Assembly (NCBI GenBank): GCA_004764695.1
Contig: SMSO01000031.1
Span: 8,804,761 to 8,868,760, forward strand
DNA length: 64,000 bases
Source of the DNA: Schizochytrium sp. TIO01
Lineage: Eukaryota; Sar; Bigyra; Thraustochytrida; Thraustochytriidae
Direction of reading: 5' to 3'
In this document: one piece after another, positions 13,975 through 60,447 of the stretch
How positions within the stretch are numbered: the first letter of the stretch is position 1
How the letters are laid out: every line of letters starts with the position of its first letter
Made by a program: the position numbers and the translations under genes
Notes under the pieces: generated by a model
What the model saw: only the letters and a program-made list of their open reading frames with translations
What the model was told of the DNA's origin: nothing
The model's database searches: none

Positions 13975-14940
13975 GATTTCCACTTCTGTACCGGCATTGC
14001 ACTCGTCAGCTACTCTCGTCCAAGTGTTTTCATCCATTCCATCGTCATTTCGTGGCGCTCGAGCGTGGCATATGTCTCATCTCAATTTAGTATTTTTCTT
14101 TTTTTTTTTCTTCTATTCTTGCAGCACGTTGCTCCAAGACTATTATGTAAAAGCTTCAGCGCGTATCTTGTTGATCTGGGAAATGGGACTTAAATAAAGG
14201 TCTTTCTATGAGAGAAAGTGGCCTTATGAGATTGCTTTGTTATCTACATATTATATATATCGGTACAATATATCATAATAGCCCTCTGAAAAGCCACACG
14301 ACATCAAAAAAGTATATAGCTTTTCTTCCATTCATCTGTCATCCACTGAGAGCAGTCCCATTCTGACCATTTCGCTAAGAGCAGTCTCATTCTGACTATT
14401 TAATTCACCACTTGTTTGCTTGTGCTCCATGTCCATTCCCCCCTCGTCCGCAGTCAGTAATAACATGTAGGAGTGTGTACTTTCTAATCAGTTCTCCCAT
14501 TTCTGACAATTTTCACTAAGAGCAGTCCATTCTGACCATTTTACGAAGAGCACTCCAATTCTGACCATTTGATTCGCAACTTGTATGCTTGTGCTCCATT
14601 TCCACCCTCCCCCTGGTCCACAGTCAGTAATAACATGTAGGGGCTAATCGGTACTTAAAGAGTTCATGGCGAATCCATCATCCACTTACTGAGTCCCATT
14701 TTCGTGAAGCAAACATAAGAGATATCGATCGACCCAGGGGGTACACGTATGAAGTTGAAGGTTTAGCAAACGCGAAACCTTGTAGCGATTGCAACCATAC
14801 AGTCTGCCTTGCGCAAGGTATAATCGAATTGTTCCTTCGAGAGTGTTTTCAAAACTTCAAAGTTCAATATCTACGCAACTTGCCAGTTTAGCAAGGAGTA
14901 AAGAAGCAAGGGAGCTCTAGCTTTGTGCCAAACAGAAAGA
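13975..14940. other. Intergenic stretch with a 130-bp direct duplication
   Basis: It holds the 3' UTR of the carrier-like gene (AATAAA at 14193) and the direct repeat listed separately. The remainder would be the channel promoter and 5' UTR. No coding frame was recognised. Confidence 0.6.
14343..14642. repeat. Direct repeat, two ~130-bp units, each with an internal ~30-bp doublet
   Basis: Unit 1 spans about 14343-14471 and unit 2 about 14513-14642. Both run from AAGAGCAGTC-ATTCTGACCATTT (occurring twice per unit), through CACTTGTTTGCTTGTGCTCC-like sequence, to CAGTCAGTAATAACATGTAGG. They differ by scattered substitutions, so the duplication is not recent. Confidence 0.85.
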
Positions 14941-16185
14941 ATGAGTCGGCATTCTACCTGCCAGAAGAGTCACGTGTCTTGTATGTCTTATCCTCATACA
15001 CAACGGCGTGAGTCGCAAGTATTCAGAGATGTTGGAGTTGCTTGCGAACTGCGGCTCATTAGTATAGATGATGTAAAGGAGTTGTTCAAAATCGCAGTGC
15101 TTGTGCATTGCCATTTCGAAAACTCAAGCTATTGCCAACCAGACCACCTGGCTGAAGATGAATTCGTACGGGACCACAAGTATGACACAGGCTCAAACTA
15201 TGTGCCAGAGATTGTCTTTGTCAATGTTGTGGACTCGCGCTGGGAACGGGACGAGCTTACTGTCCGGGTGAATCGCCACACAGGTGTAATTTGGGCTACC
15301 TTGAAGAACATTCACGATATCAACGAAAGCTTGGAGCTTTTTTCATTTCCGTTCGACCGTCAGCTTTTTCGTGTAGCATTCAAGTCGCCAAATGCATCAT
15401 TGCATGCCTGGGATCAACCAGTAGATGTGCTAGACTTGCCACCAATTATGAAGGATGGCCAAGTTGTCATGGAGAATGACTCACGGTTTTTCGTGAGTTG
15501 CGAGCTAAATGCATGGCACATGGTTGACTTGCGTGTTGTTCTGGACCAGAGTGATCCAGACGCGGTTTCACTTACCGCATCGGAGTTCGAGCTCACCATT
15601 ATGGCTGAGCGAAACCCCCTATATTATCTCAACAATTATGTTTTAGTCCTGTTTGTCATTGTCATGCTCAATGTATGCAATATGGCTTTGAGCATTGTAG
15701 ACTCAGTAGGGGAACGTCTCGCAGCTTCTCTTACATTGCTCTTGGCAGGTGTAGCCTTTAAGTCTGTCCTTAGCGAAATGCTACCGCGAGTAGCATATAG
15801 TACTTGGGCTGACGCCTATGTGCGAGTCGCTTTTCTTACACTCTTTTTTGGCTCTATTGAGAGTTTTGTTGCCTCTCCACGTATCTGGTGTTTGTCTGAA
15901 TACTTTAGTGCTGGCGATCCCACGGCAGTTCTTTTGCGTGTTGACATCTGCATCGAAAAGAAGCAACTCGCTGCAACTCAATTTGATTTGATCTTCCAGC
16001 TTGTGTACGGTGTGTGGTGGATTCTTTGCAATTTGATAGCTGCAATAATTTGCCTTCATCCTACGTTAGTGCAGCAGACCTGGGACACTGTCCTTGAGAA
16101 CCAGATTGGTGACACTGAAGCTACGACGCGACGCGCGAATGAAGTAAAACTTATCATCGACCGGGATGACGTAATTAGTACATAA
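14941..16185 (+). CDS. Pentameric ligand-gated ion channel subunit (Cys-loop/pro-loop receptor family)
   Basis: 414 aa from the ATG at 14941; the longer frame uses TTG. The N-terminal beta-sandwich domain (about 30-222) contains VPEIVFVN (88-95) and the pro-loop FPFDRQ (136-141). The flanking disulfide cysteines of animal receptors are absent, so the loop is Cys-less as in bacterial and other early-branching members. Four membrane helices: M1 about 225-250 (ERNPLYYLNNYVL before it), M2 258-281, M3 about 291-311, M4 about 349-372. M2 aligns without gaps to nicotinic receptors: Glu258 at -1', Arg259 at 0', Leu268 at 9' (the gate), Glu279 at 20', Pro282 at 23'. This is the acidic -1'/20' pattern of cation channels. 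The M3-M4 loop is short (about 37 residues). No signal peptide is visible, which is odd for an extracellular N-terminus. The ligand is unknown. Confidence 0.92.
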   Translation: MSRHSTCQKSHVSCMSYPHTQRRESQVFRDVGVACELRLISIDDVKELFKIAVLVHCHFENSSYCQPDHLAEDEFVRDHKYDTGSNYVPEIVFVNVVDSRWERDELTVRVNRHTGVIWATLKNIHDINESLELFSFPFDRQLFRVAFKSPNASLHAWDQPVDVLDLPPIMKDGQVVMENDSRFFVSCELNAWHMVDLRVVLDQSDPDAVSLTASEFELTIMAERNPLYYLNNYVLVLFVIVMLNVCNMALSIVDSVGERLAASLTLLLAGVAFKSVLSEMLPRVAYSTWADAYVRVAFLTLFFGSIESFVASPRIWCLSEYFSAGDPTAVLLRVDICIEKKQLAATQFDLIFQLVYGVWWILCNLIAAIICLHPTLVQQTWDTVLENQIGDTEATTRRANEVKLIIDRDDVIST

Positions 16186-31584: not shown

Positions 31585-33819
31585 TCATGGGGCTGCTAAG
31601 CTGAAAATTTGCAGTTTATCAAGCCCGCGCAGTGCAGTCTCTTCGAGGGCTTCCTCCATATCCTCGTCCGTGGATACGACGACGAGGTCTCCATCTGCAT
31701 TGTAGAATGCAAATGGTCCATCTCCTTGGGGAAGTTTTGCGCCCGCAAAAGGAGGCTCTGCCATAGCCATACGAAGATAAAGATTTTCATCGAACTGAAC
31801 ATGTTCTTTACGGGCTTTTGATGAGCCCTTCTTCTTACTCGCCTTCTTGTTACTATTTGCCTTGGACTTTAAACAAGTGGAAGAATTATTGCTCGTATGC
31901 GACTGGTTGGATGTCGCCACTATTTTATGTTCAGATATGCCCGGTTCGTCAGCCCCTTCGTCATCAGCATCCTCATCGTTCCCATTTTCATCACTTGATA
32001 CACCTTTGTTACACTGATTGTGAAGTTCGTCTTTCTTCCTTTTGACTGGGGCTGAAATCCCGTCCACAGAAATTTCAGGTAGTAAAAGTGCCATCTCTTG
32101 GCAAGCTGGCATTGGGCAGTAAAATACAAGGTGGTCGCCAACATGCTGCCGCAACTGCTTAAGTTCGCGTTCTTCTAAATCCTCACAATACAACGCACGT
32201 GCAAGGTCCCAGGAAGGAAATTGCCGTGCGGTACGACCTAGACAATCTAGATGCATTCGCATTCCACAACTTGGGTTCCCACATGTTACCCACTCTTTAT
32301 CATCGTCTTCTGATGACATGCATCCCCAGCATTCAGCACCGGTCCAGCGTCCATCAGGATGGTCTGAGAATTTTGCTCTGCGGCGAGCAGGAAAGTTGAA
32401 CAGGTTTTGCTCATGTGCAGCAATTGGCTTCCCGTCCGCACGATGGAAGTCAAACTCATCAAAAAATTGGCCATCTTTGAACTGCACAATACACCGAATC
32501 GCACCTAAGTGCGCCATAGCATCTAAAGTTACTGCAAAAGGCAGTAAAGGCGAGCCTGCAGGCCAAGTCCACCAACCAAGTCCATGTTGTTTGCCATCCC
32601 GAAAGAAGCCTACGTATCGAATACGATCTTTGGAATTGTTTTCGGAAGTTAGCCCTGAGGCTTGTTTAGAAAGATAGACGGAACCAAGTCCATGCCGTGC
32701 GCCATGCCGCCACCAGCCTTCATATATCTCCCCCGTGTCTGTGCTTCCAGTACGCAGTTCGAGACCAAACCCGTGCCGTTTGTCATGCCTCCATCCACCA
32801 ACATAAACAATTTTCTCCGTACGTTCGTCGACGACTTGGCCTACACCATGGCGCTCACCATTTTTCCATTCGCCTGTATATAGTTGAGAACTTGTCGCAT
32901 CCATCCGTTGTGTACCAATACCATGCGGTTGACCTTTCTCATTTGTATCGCCGTCGTACGCAGCAGGGTCGAGCAAGCGTGGTGGAAACAATCGAGTCCA
33001 TGGCGATCCCCGGCTCTGAAGAATGTCTTCAATATTTGGCTCATGAGAAAATTGTGCATGCTCATTCAAGAGCTTTTCGGCTGCCTCTCGATGACCTAGT
33101 AAAGCCTCACAAATAGCATCAACAGTCAGGTCAACACGTTTCGAATGTCCAGATCGAAGATCAAATGGTTCCTCGCCATCCGGCAGCTCCCAAAGTTGTG
33201 CAAATGATTCAGACAAGTTGGTCACTGCGACCCGCTTCCCGCACGCGGAGAATCCAATAGAAGTTATTGTATTTGTTCGGGCTGCCGCGCTTCCGATATA
33301 CTCGACTTCAACATCAAACTTCGAAGGGTGCAACCAAAATCGCCATAAGTGAGCCCTGCCGATGCCACGGCCAGAGCCGACAAGTACTGGTTGACCTCGA
33401 GGATCTTCAGGACCTGTTAATAGCACCTGTACACCAGTCAAGCCACGTTGTTTAGAATGCGACTCAAAATCCAGGGCTAGGTCATATGGTTGTGCTTTAC
33501 GCAGCCTAGCAGCATTCCCCACGACAGAATGCACGTCAAATGCTTGCAGAACATTACGAGATCCTCTTTTAGCTCCAACAAAGATGTACCGCCCCAAGCA
33601 TGTAACAACATTGACATGAGGATCTTGAAGATTGCCAGAGGTTACGACTTCACCCAGAAGGACTCTAATATTTGTTGTGAGATCGAGCATCCAGATCTCG
33701 CCATGAGCAACTCCAGCCAAGAACCCTTTTTCCTTACTCACATTACTGGCACCTGAGGTGCTTTGACTAGGACTACCCGCTGCATCTAAGGTGTCTGGCC
33801 AGCTAGCGAGAGCACTCAT
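31585..33819 (-). CDS. Multidomain WD40-like / MORN-repeat / PHD-like zinc finger / PB1-like protein
   Basis: 744 aa from the first ATG at 33819; the longer frame begins with TTG. N-terminal region about 30-215: propeller-like beta repeats (GVAHGEIWMLDL, GSGRGIGRAHLWRFW, SACGKRVAVT...SFAQLWEL). Four to five MORN-type repeats at about 289-418 (YTGEWKNGERHGVGQ, YVGGWRHDKRHGFGL, YEGWWRHGARHGLGS, YVGFFRDGKQHGLGW), commonly membrane or scaffold modules. Zinc-binding region 497-573: C497-x2-C500, C513-x4-C518, H523-x2-C526, C545, C568-x4-C573, in a PHD/ZZ-like order. Then a KR/acidic/Ser-Asn linker and a C-terminal PB1-like segment (about 690-742) with YNADGDLVVVSTDEDMEEAL resembling the acidic OPCA motif. 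I do not know a named family with this combination. It looks like a scaffold or adaptor. Divergent from MTFP1. Confidence 0.85.
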   Translation of the reverse strand: MSALASWPDTLDAAGSPSQSTSGASNVSKEKGFLAGVAHGEIWMLDLTTNIRVLLGEVVTSGNLQDPHVNVVTCLGRYIFVGAKRGSRNVLQAFDVHSVVGNAARLRKAQPYDLALDFESHSKQRGLTGVQVLLTGPEDPRGQPVLVGSGRGIGRAHLWRFWLHPSKFDVEVEYIGSAAARTNTITSIGFSACGKRVAVTNLSESFAQLWELPDGEEPFDLRSGHSKRVDLTVDAICEALLGHREAAEKLLNEHAQFSHEPNIEDILQSRGSPWTRLFPPRLLDPAAYDGDTNEKGQPHGIGTQRMDATSSQLYTGEWKNGERHGVGQVVDERTEKIVYVGGWRHDKRHGFGLELRTGSTDTGEIYEGWWRHGARHGLGSVYLSKQASGLTSENNSKDRIRYVGFFRDGKQHGLGWWTWPAGSPLLPFAVTLDAMAHLGAIRCIVQFKDGQFFDEFDFHRADGKPIAAHEQNLFNFPARRRAKFSDHPDGRWTGAECWGCMSSEDDDKEWVTCGNPSCGMRMHLDCLGRTARQFPSWDLARALYCEDLEERELKQLRQHVGDHLVFYCPMPACQEMALLLPEISVDGISAPVKRKKDELHNQCNKGVSSDENGNDEDADDEGADEPGISEHKIVATSNQSHTSNNSSTCLKSKANSNKKASKKKGSSKARKEHVQFDENLYLRMAMAEPPFAGAKLPQGDGPFAFYNADGDLVVVSTDEDMEEALEETALRGLDKLQIFSLAAP

Positions 33820-51149: not shown

Positions 51150-52919
51150 ATGATGAAAAGTTTCAATAATGCGAGTGCGGTGATTGCTGCCCTGTCAATG
51201 CTCTCTTTGATGACGATTTATTTCCTAGCCTCAGGACATAGCGCACCGATGAGAATCCACATGAGGGAATCCTCCAATGTTGCAGACCATTCAGGGCCAT
51301 GGACACTGAAGTTAAACTCTGTTAATGTGGATGGGGAAGGTGAACAAAAGCCACTGCACTTGAGGCCGTCCCCACTTGATCAAAATAACAATTACAATCA
51401 CGATGGTGATGTTAGCGATGAGGTCAGCGATGATAAGGAATGGACCGAAGAAGTTGCAGAGGAATTGCCAGAACCATCTCTTAATAGCGTCGACGAAGAA
51501 CAAGATCAAGATCTCCTACATAAATTCGCTCCGCCGCAATCTCGAGAGATTGCATTGGAGATGCTTACAAGCCTCGAGCAGGACTCTCAAGAAGGTCGGT
51601 CCTTTGGGCTAGGTCCTGCACACAAAAAACTCAAGCGGATCATATCGCACGCAGTCCATGGTCGTGCTGTGAAAGTCACAGCCGTAGGTGGGAGCGTGTC
51701 AGCCGGCGGTGGAAATGTCCCGGAAGACCAGAGATACTTTGGAAACTACGTCAAATGGCTAAAAAATATTGCACCCGATGCTGACCAAATTACTCTCGTG
51801 AACTCTGCTCAAGGTGGTGAAAACTCTATGTACGGTGCCCTCTTGTTTTCAGCTATTATTCCAGCTGACACGGATATTCTCTTCTGGGAGTTTGCCCCAA
51901 ACGATAGGAGTATTTCGAACGGTAAAAGATGCTGCGACGAAACCGATATGCTCTTTATCCAAGACCTCTTTCTTCGCCGTGTTGCTGCCATGCCAAATCC
52001 TCCTGTGGTTATCCTCGTTTACACTTGGTCAATTCCCTCACACGAAAGCAAGAAAAGCATGATTAAGGACATGTCGCTTCAATCTACAAAAGCCCATGCC
52101 ATGAACTTTCCTCTCGTTGGCGGCTACGTTAGCCTTGTGGAAAAACTCCATCGAGATGCGTCACTTCCCCATTTCGTACAGGATGTGAGAAAGGCCGTGT
52201 TTGCCGATAAGGCTCATCCTAACGAAATTGGCCACGCTATCATGGGAAATCTTCTCATCCAACTTACGAATGCTGCTTATCGCTCTGATGCAGGCGAAAT
52301 GAGGTTGCAAATCGACGAGTCCTCTTACCCTGCGCCGAAGTGGCCTTGCGGAGAATACGGTAGCTTTATTGAAAACACCTTGATGAATATGCGCACTTCG
52401 ACCGCCTGGACGTCCTTAAAACCTTCTCTGGAGGATCAACAGCTTCCTCTCAGCCACTTCAGTGCCAACCAAGATAAAATCAGCTCTGTGGAAGGCAAGC
52501 TCAAGACTGTTCTCTTCGGTAAGACCAGCCCTATCCGCAAAGATCGCAAACTCTTTCTAGAGCTACCTTGCTGCAGTAGAGAAGAATTCCTTCGCTTCGA
52601 CTTCTCATCCCTCCCGAGTCAGAGCGCTCTTCACTTTGCAGTCGAAGAGACTAGAAGCACTGCAGTTTTTCTTTCCTCGACACCAAAGCTTAAATTTGAT
52701 AACGCTAAGAGGGAACCTGTAGAGGATGCAATGTCATGGAAAACCTCGTGCGTTGTACGCAATTTCCCTAATAACGAGTTCCGGGCATGGGTGGACTTGG
52801 AGAACTCCCAAATCAAAAACCCAAAGTATGCTTTCTTGTGTAATACCCGCTGTAGCACCTTTAATACTGTGCGATGGTTTTCAGTGATTGAAAGAAATAA
52901 TTTAAGCACCCATGAATAA
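51150..52919 (+). CDS. SGNH/GDSL-family hydrolase, secretory pathway (paralogue 1 of 3)
   Basis: 589 aa from the tandem ATGs at 51150/51153; the longer frame starts with GTG. A hydrophobic segment at residues about 8-28 is a signal peptide or type II anchor. An acidic, disordered linker (about 60-125) follows. SGNH blocks: I, AVGGSVSAGGGN with nucleophile Ser182; II, NSAQGGENSMYGALL (Gly222/223); III, LFWEFAPND (Asn251); V, FADKAHPNEIGH (Asp353 and His356). All catalytic residues are present, so an esterase, acetylesterase or lipase-like activity on a secreted or Golgi substrate is likely. A second region (about 390-585) shares with the paralogues WPCGEYG, AWTSLKP, SPIRKDRKLFLELPCCSREEFLRFD and FRAWVD. 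It looks like a beta-rich accessory domain that I cannot name. Its stop codon lies within an AATAAA. Confidence 0.88.
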   Translation: MMKSFNNASAVIAALSMLSLMTIYFLASGHSAPMRIHMRESSNVADHSGPWTLKLNSVNVDGEGEQKPLHLRPSPLDQNNNYNHDGDVSDEVSDDKEWTEEVAEELPEPSLNSVDEEQDQDLLHKFAPPQSREIALEMLTSLEQDSQEGRSFGLGPAHKKLKRIISHAVHGRAVKVTAVGGSVSAGGGNVPEDQRYFGNYVKWLKNIAPDADQITLVNSAQGGENSMYGALLFSAIIPADTDILFWEFAPNDRSISNGKRCCDETDMLFIQDLFLRRVAAMPNPPVVILVYTWSIPSHESKKSMIKDMSLQSTKAHAMNFPLVGGYVSLVEKLHRDASLPHFVQDVRKAVFADKAHPNEIGHAIMGNLLIQLTNAAYRSDAGEMRLQIDESSYPAPKWPCGEYGSFIENTLMNMRTSTAWTSLKPSLEDQQLPLSHFSANQDKISSVEGKLKTVLFGKTSPIRKDRKLFLELPCCSREEFLRFDFSSLPSQSALHFAVEETRSTAVFLSSTPKLKFDNAKREPVEDAMSWKTSCVVRNFPNNEFRAWVDLENSQIKNPKYAFLCNTRCSTFNTVRWFSVIERNNLSTHE

Positions 52920-53620: not shown

Positions 53621-55429
53621 ATGGCGAGTTGCAAGGCGCTGGCGTTTCTCTTGGTGGCTTGTATCTTTGGCGTTGGCCTCTCGTTTCTAAGTGAATCTGA
53701 AACGTTGTCAAGGCTATGGGCTCTCGACGACACAGCTCCAAGTAAAGAAAGGCCAAAAGAGCGCCAGGACAAAAAGGTGAAAAACATTGGAAACGAAGAA
53801 CTAGTAGAAGCGAAGAAGACCTCGGGTCAAGCACAATACTCCCATCAAAACTTGGGCGATAATGCAGTCAAGCGTTCTAAAGAGTTAGCCAACCACAGTG
53901 TCAACGAGACTCCAGCAACTGCCTCACCATCAATAGTTTTCCAAAATGAAGTTGGCCAGGATTTCTTGCCATCAAGCTCTGAATCAAAGCCCCACAATCA
54001 AAGTGGTGACTATTTGTCATTCAAGGGCACATTTTCACCCACTTCAGAAGATTTGGGATCTGGACCCAGGAATGAGAAAATCCCATGGCCACAGGAACAA
54101 CAAAACCGAAGCCGCGCCTTTGGGTTAGGTATCGCGCATCCTAAGCTTAAAGATCTCTTAGAGCGAATTCGCAATGAAACAGCTGTCAAGATTGCAGTGC
54201 TTGGCGGAAGTGTCTCAGCAGGAGGGGGTAACATAACAGCAGAAAAACGCTATTTTAGCCACTATACGCACTGGCTGAAAAACCTAACGTCATCACCTAG
54301 AAAAATCACGCTTTCTAACTATGCGCAAGGCGGGGAAAATTCATTATATGGGGCTCTGCTTTTCTCAGCTATTGTTCCTTTGGATACTGATTTAATATTT
54401 TGGGAGTATTCTCCAAATGACAAAACGTATCCTGGATTAAATGGCTGTTGTAGACCCAACGATATGATATATATCCAGGATGCGTTTCTTCGGAGGGTTT
54501 CATCTATGAATCCATTGCCAGTTGTTATTCTAGTGTATACGTGGTCGATTCCTTCTCACAAAGATTTGATCCGAGGGCGTTCAATTAAAGATAAGTCTCT
54601 TCGTAGTACCAAAGACCACGCCCTCCAATTCCCATTTGTTGCGGGCTATGTTAGCCTCGTGGAGGAGCTCTTACAGAACCCAAACCTCCCAAAGCTCGTT
54701 CCAGAAGTAGAAGAGATGTTTTTTGCAGATAAGGTACATCCAAATGAAAAGGGGCACACTCTTATGGGTAAATTACTTATTGATCTTTCTGTCATGGCAA
54801 GCTCCTCATCATCCAAGTCAGCTACAAATGGTGCTTCCCTTATCCCACAGCCAAAGTGGCCTTGCGATGACAATGGACTCTCTATCAGGAATGCGTTAGC
54901 TGAAGTGCAATACACTCAAGCTTGGACTGCTTTACAGCCTTCCATTCCCAACCAGCAACTTTCTCTCGTATTTTATGAAGCTAGCCAGAAGAAGGTTTCA
55001 CCTATTGAGGACAGACTTAAATTTATTATCAACGGAAAAACGAGTCAAATTAGAATTGATCGTAAATATTCTCTGGAGCTTCCATGTTGCTCTCGCGACG
55101 AATACCTTCGGTTTAACATAACCTCTGCAACGCGTCAAAAGGCTTTGAATTTTCGTGTTGATTATCCTGATGACCTTATCGTATATATTAGCTCATCAGC
55201 TGATCTTGATTCCACATTTGTATATAAAGCCCCTTTAATTGACGCCTTCAGTTGGACATCAACATCATGCGTACTTCGTACTTTTCCTAATGGGGAATTC
55301 CGTTTGTGGGTAGATCTTGATTCCATCGCCGTAGACCCGAAATATGTGTTTATTTGTGAAAATATATGCAACAAAAGCGACACGCACAATACACTGAGAT
55401 GGTTTACCGCGATCGGTGGCCAAGTATGA
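53621..55429 (+). CDS. SGNH/GDSL-family hydrolase, secretory pathway (paralogue 2 of 3)
   Basis: 602 aa, ATG start. Signal peptide or anchor at about 5-25 (ALAFLLVACIFGVGLSFL). A long hydrophilic linker (30-165) has several N-x-S/T sites (Asn91, 95, 126, 162, 185), consistent with a glycosylated stalk. Catalytic blocks: VLGGSVSAGGGN (Ser197), NYAQGGENSLYGALL (Gly237/238), FWEYSPND (Asn266), FADKVHPNEKGH (Asp370, His373). A conserved Cys pair (GCCRPND, 276-277) and the C-terminal region with WPCDDNG, SQIRIDRKYSLELPCCSRDEYLRF and FRLWVD match paralogue 1 closely. Third codon positions are visibly richer in A/T than in paralogue 1, although the proteins are close relatives. Probably an active secreted or membrane-anchored carbohydrate or lipid esterase; substrate unknown. 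Confidence 0.88.
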   Translation: MASCKALAFLLVACIFGVGLSFLSESETLSRLWALDDTAPSKERPKERQDKKVKNIGNEELVEAKKTSGQAQYSHQNLGDNAVKRSKELANHSVNETPATASPSIVFQNEVGQDFLPSSSESKPHNQSGDYLSFKGTFSPTSEDLGSGPRNEKIPWPQEQQNRSRAFGLGIAHPKLKDLLERIRNETAVKIAVLGGSVSAGGGNITAEKRYFSHYTHWLKNLTSSPRKITLSNYAQGGENSLYGALLFSAIVPLDTDLIFWEYSPNDKTYPGLNGCCRPNDMIYIQDAFLRRVSSMNPLPVVILVYTWSIPSHKDLIRGRSIKDKSLRSTKDHALQFPFVAGYVSLVEELLQNPNLPKLVPEVEEMFFADKVHPNEKGHTLMGKLLIDLSVMASSSSSKSATNGASLIPQPKWPCDDNGLSIRNALAEVQYTQAWTALQPSIPNQQLSLVFYEASQKKVSPIEDRLKFIINGKTSQIRIDRKYSLELPCCSRDEYLRFNITSATRQKALNFRVDYPDDLIVYISSSADLDSTFVYKAPLIDAFSWTSTSCVLRTFPNGEFRLWVDLDSIAVDPKYVFICENICNKSDTHNTLRWFTAIGGQV

Positions 55430-58860: not shown

Positions 58861-60447
58861 ATGTTGAACCGCCCTTTAAACTTATGTGTCTCGTTTGTAT
58901 GTTTCCTTATGGTGGTTTCGATGCCTTTGTATCGGCGTATTAACTGGAACCCCCAGTCAACAAGAGAAATTGCAGGTCAACACAGCGCAGACTTTTTGCA
59001 AAACAAGCCTGGGGTTGCTCTAGATGTCGAGGAGAAATCGGGCTCTTCGTCAGTCTGGAATAAAAGTTCGTATACAATACCGTATGTGGATTTGCAGTCG
59101 AAGCGCGATGCCCCGTTTGGCTTTGGTGCTGGCAAAGATGATTTTAAGAAGTTGCTAGAGCAAGTACGCAGCGGAGCGAAGGCCAATATAGTCACAGTTG
59201 GCAGCAGCATCACAGCGGGGGCCGGTGACGTACCATCATCCGAAAGGTATTTTGAGCATTATATCAACTGGTTGACATCTTGGGCTAATATATCTACAGA
59301 GGCTGTGCCGGAAAGAATTAACTTCACGAATGCTGGTCAAGGCGGGGCCACATCAGTGTATGGTGCCTTGCTTTATTCTGTACTAGTACCCGAAGGCACT
59401 GACCTGCTTTTTTGGGAATTCTCTGTGAACGACAAAAGCTTAGAAGATGACGGCCTTTGCTGCTCTAAGGAGGACATGCTTTTTATTCAGGATTTATTTT
59501 TGCGGCGTGTTGCTGCGATGAAGAAGCCGCCTGTCGTCGTGTTAGTTTATGTGTGGTCATCTCCTCTCGTCAAAGATTTACTAGCGGGGGTTAACTTATA
59601 CGATTCGTCATTCGAAAGTACATCGGAGCATGCATTAGCGTTCCCATTTGTTGCCGGTTACGTTAGTATGGTCAATGAAATCAAGAGATGGGGTGATGAC
59701 ACATTAAAGGTCCAGAAGGCCCGAAAAAAATTATTCGCTGACCGTGTACACCCTAATGGAAAAGCTCATCGGATCATAGGTCAACTTTTACGAAATCTTT
59801 CAATTGCAACATTGGAAAGCTCGCCAAGCAGTACAGACTTAAAAATAACACCAAAACACATGTTGACATCCAGAGAAAGTATTGATTGGCCATGCCAGAC
59901 ATATGGACTTAAAATTGGGCGTGCTTTACAGTCTATGCGAAAGACATATGCCTGGACTTTACTTGAGCCAACAGACCATGGTCACAATCTACCAGCGACG
60001 ACCTGGAATAGAGTAACTGGTGAGACCAGGAATGTCCTTGAAACGTCTAAGACTGTTCTGACTGGCGTGACGAGCTCCATTCGTAAGGATCGTAAATATG
60101 CACTCACACTACCATCTTGTTCTGATCACAATTATATTCGCTTTGACCTGACAGGTGTACAAAGACCAGCTGCATTTCAAATCTTTGTGGATGATGCAGA
60201 TTCCGTCGAAGTCTACACCGCAAATACGTCGAACCCAACTGCAATAAAGATGCACAAGTTGGAAATCGAAGATGCTGGCGCGTGGACTGGAACAAATTGC
60301 ATGTTTCGAACCTCACCTCGTTCTGATTACCGTGTTTGGGCGCATATTAATCCTGTTCTGGAAGCAAGTTATGCTTTCGTGTGCCAGCCCCAGAGCTATG
60401 GTGACACCCCCGCCCTAATGCGCTGGTTTGCAGTCGTTGAGGTTTGA
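58861..60447 (+). CDS. SGNH/GDSL-family hydrolase, secretory pathway (paralogue 3 of 3)
   Basis: 528 aa, ATG start. N-terminal hydrophobic segment about 6-22 (LNLCVSFVCFLMVVSMPL) followed by RR, so a type II anchor or signal peptide. The linker is shorter than in the other two. Catalytic blocks: TVGSSITAGAGD (nucleophile Ser116; the second Gly of the paralogues' GGS is Ser here), NAGQGGATSVYGALL (Gly161/162), FWEFSVND (Asn190) and FADRVHPNGKAH (Asp294, His297). The Cys pair GLCCSKED (200-201) and the C-terminal region (WPCQTYG, SSIRKDRKYALTLPSCSDHNYIRFD, YRVWAH) are kept, with PSC replacing PCC. It is the most diverged of the three, so the array is not a recent tandem duplication. Role as for the paralogues; it may act on a different substrate. 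Confidence 0.87.
   Translation: MLNRPLNLCVSFVCFLMVVSMPLYRRINWNPQSTREIAGQHSADFLQNKPGVALDVEEKSGSSSVWNKSSYTIPYVDLQSKRDAPFGFGAGKDDFKKLLEQVRSGAKANIVTVGSSITAGAGDVPSSERYFEHYINWLTSWANISTEAVPERINFTNAGQGGATSVYGALLYSVLVPEGTDLLFWEFSVNDKSLEDDGLCCSKEDMLFIQDLFLRRVAAMKKPPVVVLVYVWSSPLVKDLLAGVNLYDSSFESTSEHALAFPFVAGYVSMVNEIKRWGDDTLKVQKARKKLFADRVHPNGKAHRIIGQLLRNLSIATLESSPSSTDLKITPKHMLTSRESIDWPCQTYGLKIGRALQSMRKTYAWTLLEPTDHGHNLPATTWNRVTGETRNVLETSKTVLTGVTSSIRKDRKYALTLPSCSDHNYIRFDLTGVQRPAAFQIFVDDADSVEVYTANTSNPTAIKMHKLEIEDAGAWTGTNCMFRTSPRSDYRVWAHINPVLEASYAFVCQPQSYGDTPALMRWFAVVEV

Follow-up and report, generated by a model that had tools for sequence, protein, structure and literature searches.

A predicted Cys-less pentameric ligand-gated channel subunit in a thraustochytrid and the likely orientation of its binding domain

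What kind of protein is encoded by the open reading frame at positions 14941-16185 of a 64,000-nucleotide stretch of the Schizochytrium sp. TIO01 genome (contig SMSO01000031.1; the whole stretch is called the window below) and, if it is a receptor channel, on which side of the membrane would its ligand be sensed? A preliminary description, made from the letters alone, had proposed a protist pentameric ligand-gated channel (pLGIC) with a nicotinic-like cation pore. The reading frame is not interrupted between its ATG and its stop. When its synonymous codon choice was compared with that of the neighbouring genes, values of 0.042 in frame, -0.026 in the shifted frame and -0.010 in antisense were obtained, and its codon preference fits that of these genes. 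The features of the gene are the following.

14941..16185, plus strand: complete single-exon ORF of a predicted Cys-less pLGIC subunit, 414 amino acids (codons), ATG at 14941, stop ending at 16185
14941..15039, plus strand: N-terminal 33 residues, polar and basic, without hydrophobic signal peptide
15040..15606, plus strand: predicted ligand-binding beta-sandwich domain, with N-x-S sequons at N61, N128, N151 and N179
15346..15363, plus strand: Pro-loop FPFDRQ, residues 136-141, without flanking Cys pair
15610..15612, plus strand: R224, the pre-M1 arginine, shared by all aligned sequences
15619..15687, plus strand: predicted M1 helix, residues about 227-249 (226-248 in the model), with Val236 at the M1 proline site of the family
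15712..15783, plus strand: predicted M2 pore helix, E258 (-1') to L281 (22') (256-280 in the model)
15805..15870, plus strand: predicted M3 helix, residues 289-310
15988..16056, plus strand: predicted M4 helix, residues 350-372, modelled together with the preceding segment as one long helix (327-372)
16057..16182, plus strand: 42-residue tail beyond M4

Some observations concern the surroundings of the gene. Upstream of it, positions 14358-14641 contain two diverged copies (83-94%) of one segment with a spacing of 169-170 bp, and this repeated segment is probably located in the promoter region of the channel gene. Elsewhere in the window, three adjoining paralogous ORFs, each with a hydrophobic stretch at the N-terminus, are found at 51150-52919, 53621-55429 and 58861-60447; they weakly match the SGNH/GDSL hydrolases (for the first, Pfam E 0.0076, below the cut-off). 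The 744-aa product of an ORF on the minus strand (31585-33819) appears, as judged by eye, to combine WD-repeat and MORN repeats with a PHD-like zinc segment. The same genome contains an omega-3 PUFA synthase gene, matched above the NCBIfam cut-off, and its genes are long, uninterrupted and eukaryotic, features which together suggest a thraustochytrid.

When the translated protein was compared with PDB chains by phmmer, the best match was ELIC (E 3.7e-10), followed by the muscle nAChR beta subunit (6e-6), 5-HT3A and GLIC. In the reciprocal direction, ELIC used as a query in the genome retrieved the window gene and two Cys-less paralogues, and nothing further. The profile search which the preliminary description had proposed as a check matched both channel families of Pfam, the ligand-binding one (PF02931, E 1.3e-4) and the transmembrane one (PF02932, E 0.01). 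Both matches lie under the gathering cut-offs, so that automatic annotation could overlook this gene. In a 23-sequence alignment with bacterial relatives, four columns were invariant, namely the Pro-loop P137, the pre-M1 R224, L268 (9') and P282 (23'). The superfamily marks present in the protein comprise FPFD at 136-139, R224, the beta9 tryptophan W192 and the M2-M3 proline P282. No bacterial relative was found on a plasmid or in a viral contig.

Structure prediction, the other check proposed at the outset, gave an AlphaFold2 single-chain model (pLDDT 74, pTM 0.70) in which a beta-sandwich is followed by four membrane helices. With this model, Foldseek returned pLGICs only among the best 50 matches listed, and VIA-align superimposed its residues 20-385 on GlyR, GABA-A and nAChR chains with Z values of 21.6-22.9 and an rmsd of about 5, for 300-340 aligned residues. 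Since the alignment given to the model held known relatives, the agreement of the fold is supportive rather than fully independent proof. Sequence matches, conserved residues and predicted fold all support the assignment of the window gene as a subunit of a Cys-less pLGIC (Pro-loop superfamily), in agreement with the family proposed initially.

The FPFDRQ loop had been described as devoid of flanking cysteines, and this was confirmed by the ORF translation and the alignment: the cysteines of the binding domain are at positions 35, 57, 65 and 187, and none of them flanks the loop. As the Cys-loop disulfide is absent, the protein is not filed as a nicotinic receptor. With these receptors it shares the GE[K/R] filter motif, L9' and E20', but the match is weaker (E 6e-6) and K15' and A13' differ. 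The M3-M4 loop, presented at first as short and like that of bacterial channels, is indeed short by animal standards; with about 40 residues versus 12-28 in 19 bacterial relatives, it is however longer than the bacterial ones. The tail after M4 is also longer, 42 residues versus 0-15 in these relatives.

With ELIC of Dickeya, the identity is about 30% over the ELIC piece used, and FPFDRQ, RNPxYYL, ERL at -1' to 1' and A13' are shared. Unlike the window protein, ELIC possesses a signal peptide, the M1 proline and Phe16', and it has no C-terminal tail. Furthermore, the residues which we take to form its amine site (E77, E131, F133, Y175 and F188) are not conserved: V, K, P, S and A, respectively, are found opposite them in the alignment, which is uncertain in the region of loop C. 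Owing to these replacements, the ligand of the window channel is probably other than an ELIC-type primary amine.

The search for channel genes covered 64 Mb in 37 contigs. The two paralogues are Cys-less single-exon genes, and both proteins match solved pLGICs. One, P0002 (G000:C31:7394257-7395447, minus strand), shows 26% identity. The other is at G000:C31:8767579-8768877 on the plus strand (L020:802-2103). For the L020 protein no Pfam match was obtained at E 0.1, although its assignment is clear from phmmer and from the fold model (Z 23-24, rmsd about 3). Its gene would probably escape standard annotation. In the tree, the three Cys-less proteins form one group (87/88) joined weakly near ELIC, with long branches that warn of a false join. 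A fourth, distant channel gene, L004, is located on G000:C30 at 1190204-1192636 (L004:61-2436, about 1190264-1192639). In its product, a signal peptide and an additional N-terminal domain of ~220 aa are combined with a membrane region of the pLGIC type and, at the C-terminus, with a SAM domain (Pfam E 4.9e-5, above the cut-off); its loop reads YPFQDQ, and M2 has an anion-type look, being basic at positions 19' and -2'. The Pfam transmembrane model also matched at L005, L006, L007 and L009, of which L006 and L007 were inspected and rejected as channels, the former sitting in a coiled-coil repeat region and the latter being a HEAT-like protein.

With R259 at 0', M2 reads E-1' R0' L1' A2' ... L9' ... 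A13' F14' K15' S16' ... E20' M21' L22' P23', so that the register and the residues assigned to -1', 9', 20' and 23' in the preliminary description were exact. The inner end carries the GE[K/R] motif (G257 E258 R259). By contrast, Ala13' and Lys15', which had been called unusual, are not: among the 19 bacterial relatives, Ala13' occurs in all 19 and a basic 15' (Arg) in six, and a small residue at 2' (Gly/Ser) in 14. The pore is therefore of the bacterial type, with an acidic ring at either mouth. E-1' itself is found only in the ELIC orthologue among the 19, and E20' in two. The nicotinic-like cation pore stands in part only: the acidic -1' and 20' are consistent with cation selectivity and the GER motif is of the cation type in animals, but according to Jaiteh et al. 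2016 (PMC4795631) this motif is not enough to tell the selectivity of protist and prokaryotic channels. Cation selectivity of the window channel is a reasonable guess from its residues.

The M1 14' proline deserves separate consideration. It is missing in all three Cys-less proteins (Val236 in the window protein) and kept in 19/19 bacterial relatives and in L004. Together with the replacement of four residues of the presumed ELIC site (E131, F133, Y175 and F188), this loss would suit a non-conducting or regulatory pLGIC-like subunit in which gating, the M1 kink and the known amine cage have been lost. However, the coupling residues FPFD, R224, the M2-M3 proline and L9' are all retained, ligand sites are variable by nature, and the M1 proline is conserved in just 77% of the superfamily (PMC4795631), being typical rather than defining. 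A non-conducting subunit is consequently regarded as unlikely.

Concerning the orientation in the membrane, no hydrophobic run after a Met and before beta-1 was found in any of the three Cys-less ORFs. Their best 9-residue mean hydropathy was 0.04-0.3 (0.3 for the window gene), versus 2.1-3.5 for the bacterial relatives with the 5' end present (L042 and L017 showed a hydrophobic run without ATG in the tested stretch) and 3.5 for L004. In addition, the hydrophobic N-terminus is encoded within the same exon in four other ORFs of secretory type in the window. These data would agree with Cys-less subunits, at least the two paralogues, that are inserted without signal peptide and expose their binding domain to the cytosol, so that the channel would sense an intracellular ligand or sit in an organelle membrane. 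The K+R bias of the paralogues is the lowest in the set (P0002, +1 to -4; L020 protein, -1 to -5), bacterial values never falling below +1, and their binding domains contain no sequon; both traits lean to a reversed topology for these two proteins. The positive-inside rule is however a tendency, 5' exons may be missing from the predicted gene models, and the lack of sequons in two domains this short, where about 1.0 and 1.5 would be expected, carries no significance by itself. The window gene itself leans the other way: its bias of +4 (0 to +4 across boundary choices) falls mostly within the bacterial range, and its binding domain holds four sequons versus 1.1 expected (P 0.015), which leans towards normal topology, the binding domain facing the outside or the lumen. 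Cytosolic binding domains are thus given a low probability. The same low weight applies to a broader scenario, in which a thraustochytrid branch of pentameric receptors lost both signal peptide and M1 kink and in which at least some members have reversed topology and are gated from inside the cell.

The sequons and charge bias of the window gene would also suit an ordinary pLGIC that in fact starts further upstream, in an unrecognised exon encoding the signal peptide. A short 5' exon is often retained in intron-poor genomes. The search for such an exon yielded a single GT-AG joinable candidate with a hydrophobic run, at -869 (about 14072). It derives, however, from a T-rich tract close to where the upstream gene ends, ahead of the AATAAA-like signal of that gene, and shuffled DNA gives a candidate as often (37%), so that it was rejected as being at chance level. 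No joinable exon was found in the 1.2 kb examined upstream of P0002. A hidden exon, which is a variant of the preferred explanation and compatible with it, is judged plausible but somewhat doubtful.

The preferred explanation, which we consider rather probable as a whole, is that of a thraustochytrid Cys-less subunit gated by its binding domain. It would assemble into pentamers, alone or mixed with the two Cys-less paralogues, with M2 lining the pore. A small molecule would bind the beta-sandwich domain, and the signal would be relayed by the contact between the Pro-loop (FPFD) and the pre-M1 R224 and by the M2-M3 loop, so as to open the Leu9' gate. On account of the charged rings formed by E-1' and E20', the pore would prefer cations. 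For the window subunit the normal orientation appears likelier, with insertion by an unrecognised route or by way of an upstream exon. Against this explanation, the standard secretory route is unsupported by an ORF without signal peptide and without convincing upstream exon, and the M1 proline kink of the bacterial relatives is missing.

Single-celled eukaryotic members, called rare in the preliminary description, are so only in relative terms: 22 protist genera, including stramenopiles, were reported to carry pLGIC genes, most of them Cys-less (PMC4795631), and such genes occur in many diatoms (PMC11085791). With the Cys-less receptors that Jaiteh, Taly and Henin (2016) described in protists, among which are stramenopiles such as diatoms and oomycetes, the window protein shares the Cys-less Pro-loop, the pre-M1 Arg, a basic M2 0', Leu9', the M2-M3 Pro and an origin in a eukaryotic microbe; it differs, by comparison with their description rather than their sequences, in having no M1 proline and no signal peptide found. 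Cys-less pLGICs are thus already known in stramenopiles, and the window gene adds a member. The text of Jaiteh et al. 2016 (PMC4795631) mentions no labyrinthulomycete by name, and our literature search found no paper on thraustochytrid pLGICs. What is new here is the presence of three related Cys-less genes without signal peptide or M1 proline, and of a fourth channel gene that encodes a signal peptide and a SAM domain. The preliminary description had noted neither the lack of signal peptide and M1 proline nor the three additional channel genes.

As of 2016, not one pLGIC from a unicellular organism had a known biological role (PMC4795631). A neurotransmitter-gated channel orthogroup is among the indicators of phagotrophy in MAST stramenopiles, in a study where thraustochytrids were counted as osmotrophs (PMC8163842). 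The window gene would be a marine protist's version of the channels by which animal nerves sense neurotransmitters. The part that merits pursuit is the question of topology, which the missing signal peptide makes clearly and cheaply testable. Thraustochytrids can be cultured, and genetic transformation has been reported for some of them; the four channel genes are therefore practical for asking what such receptors do without nerves.
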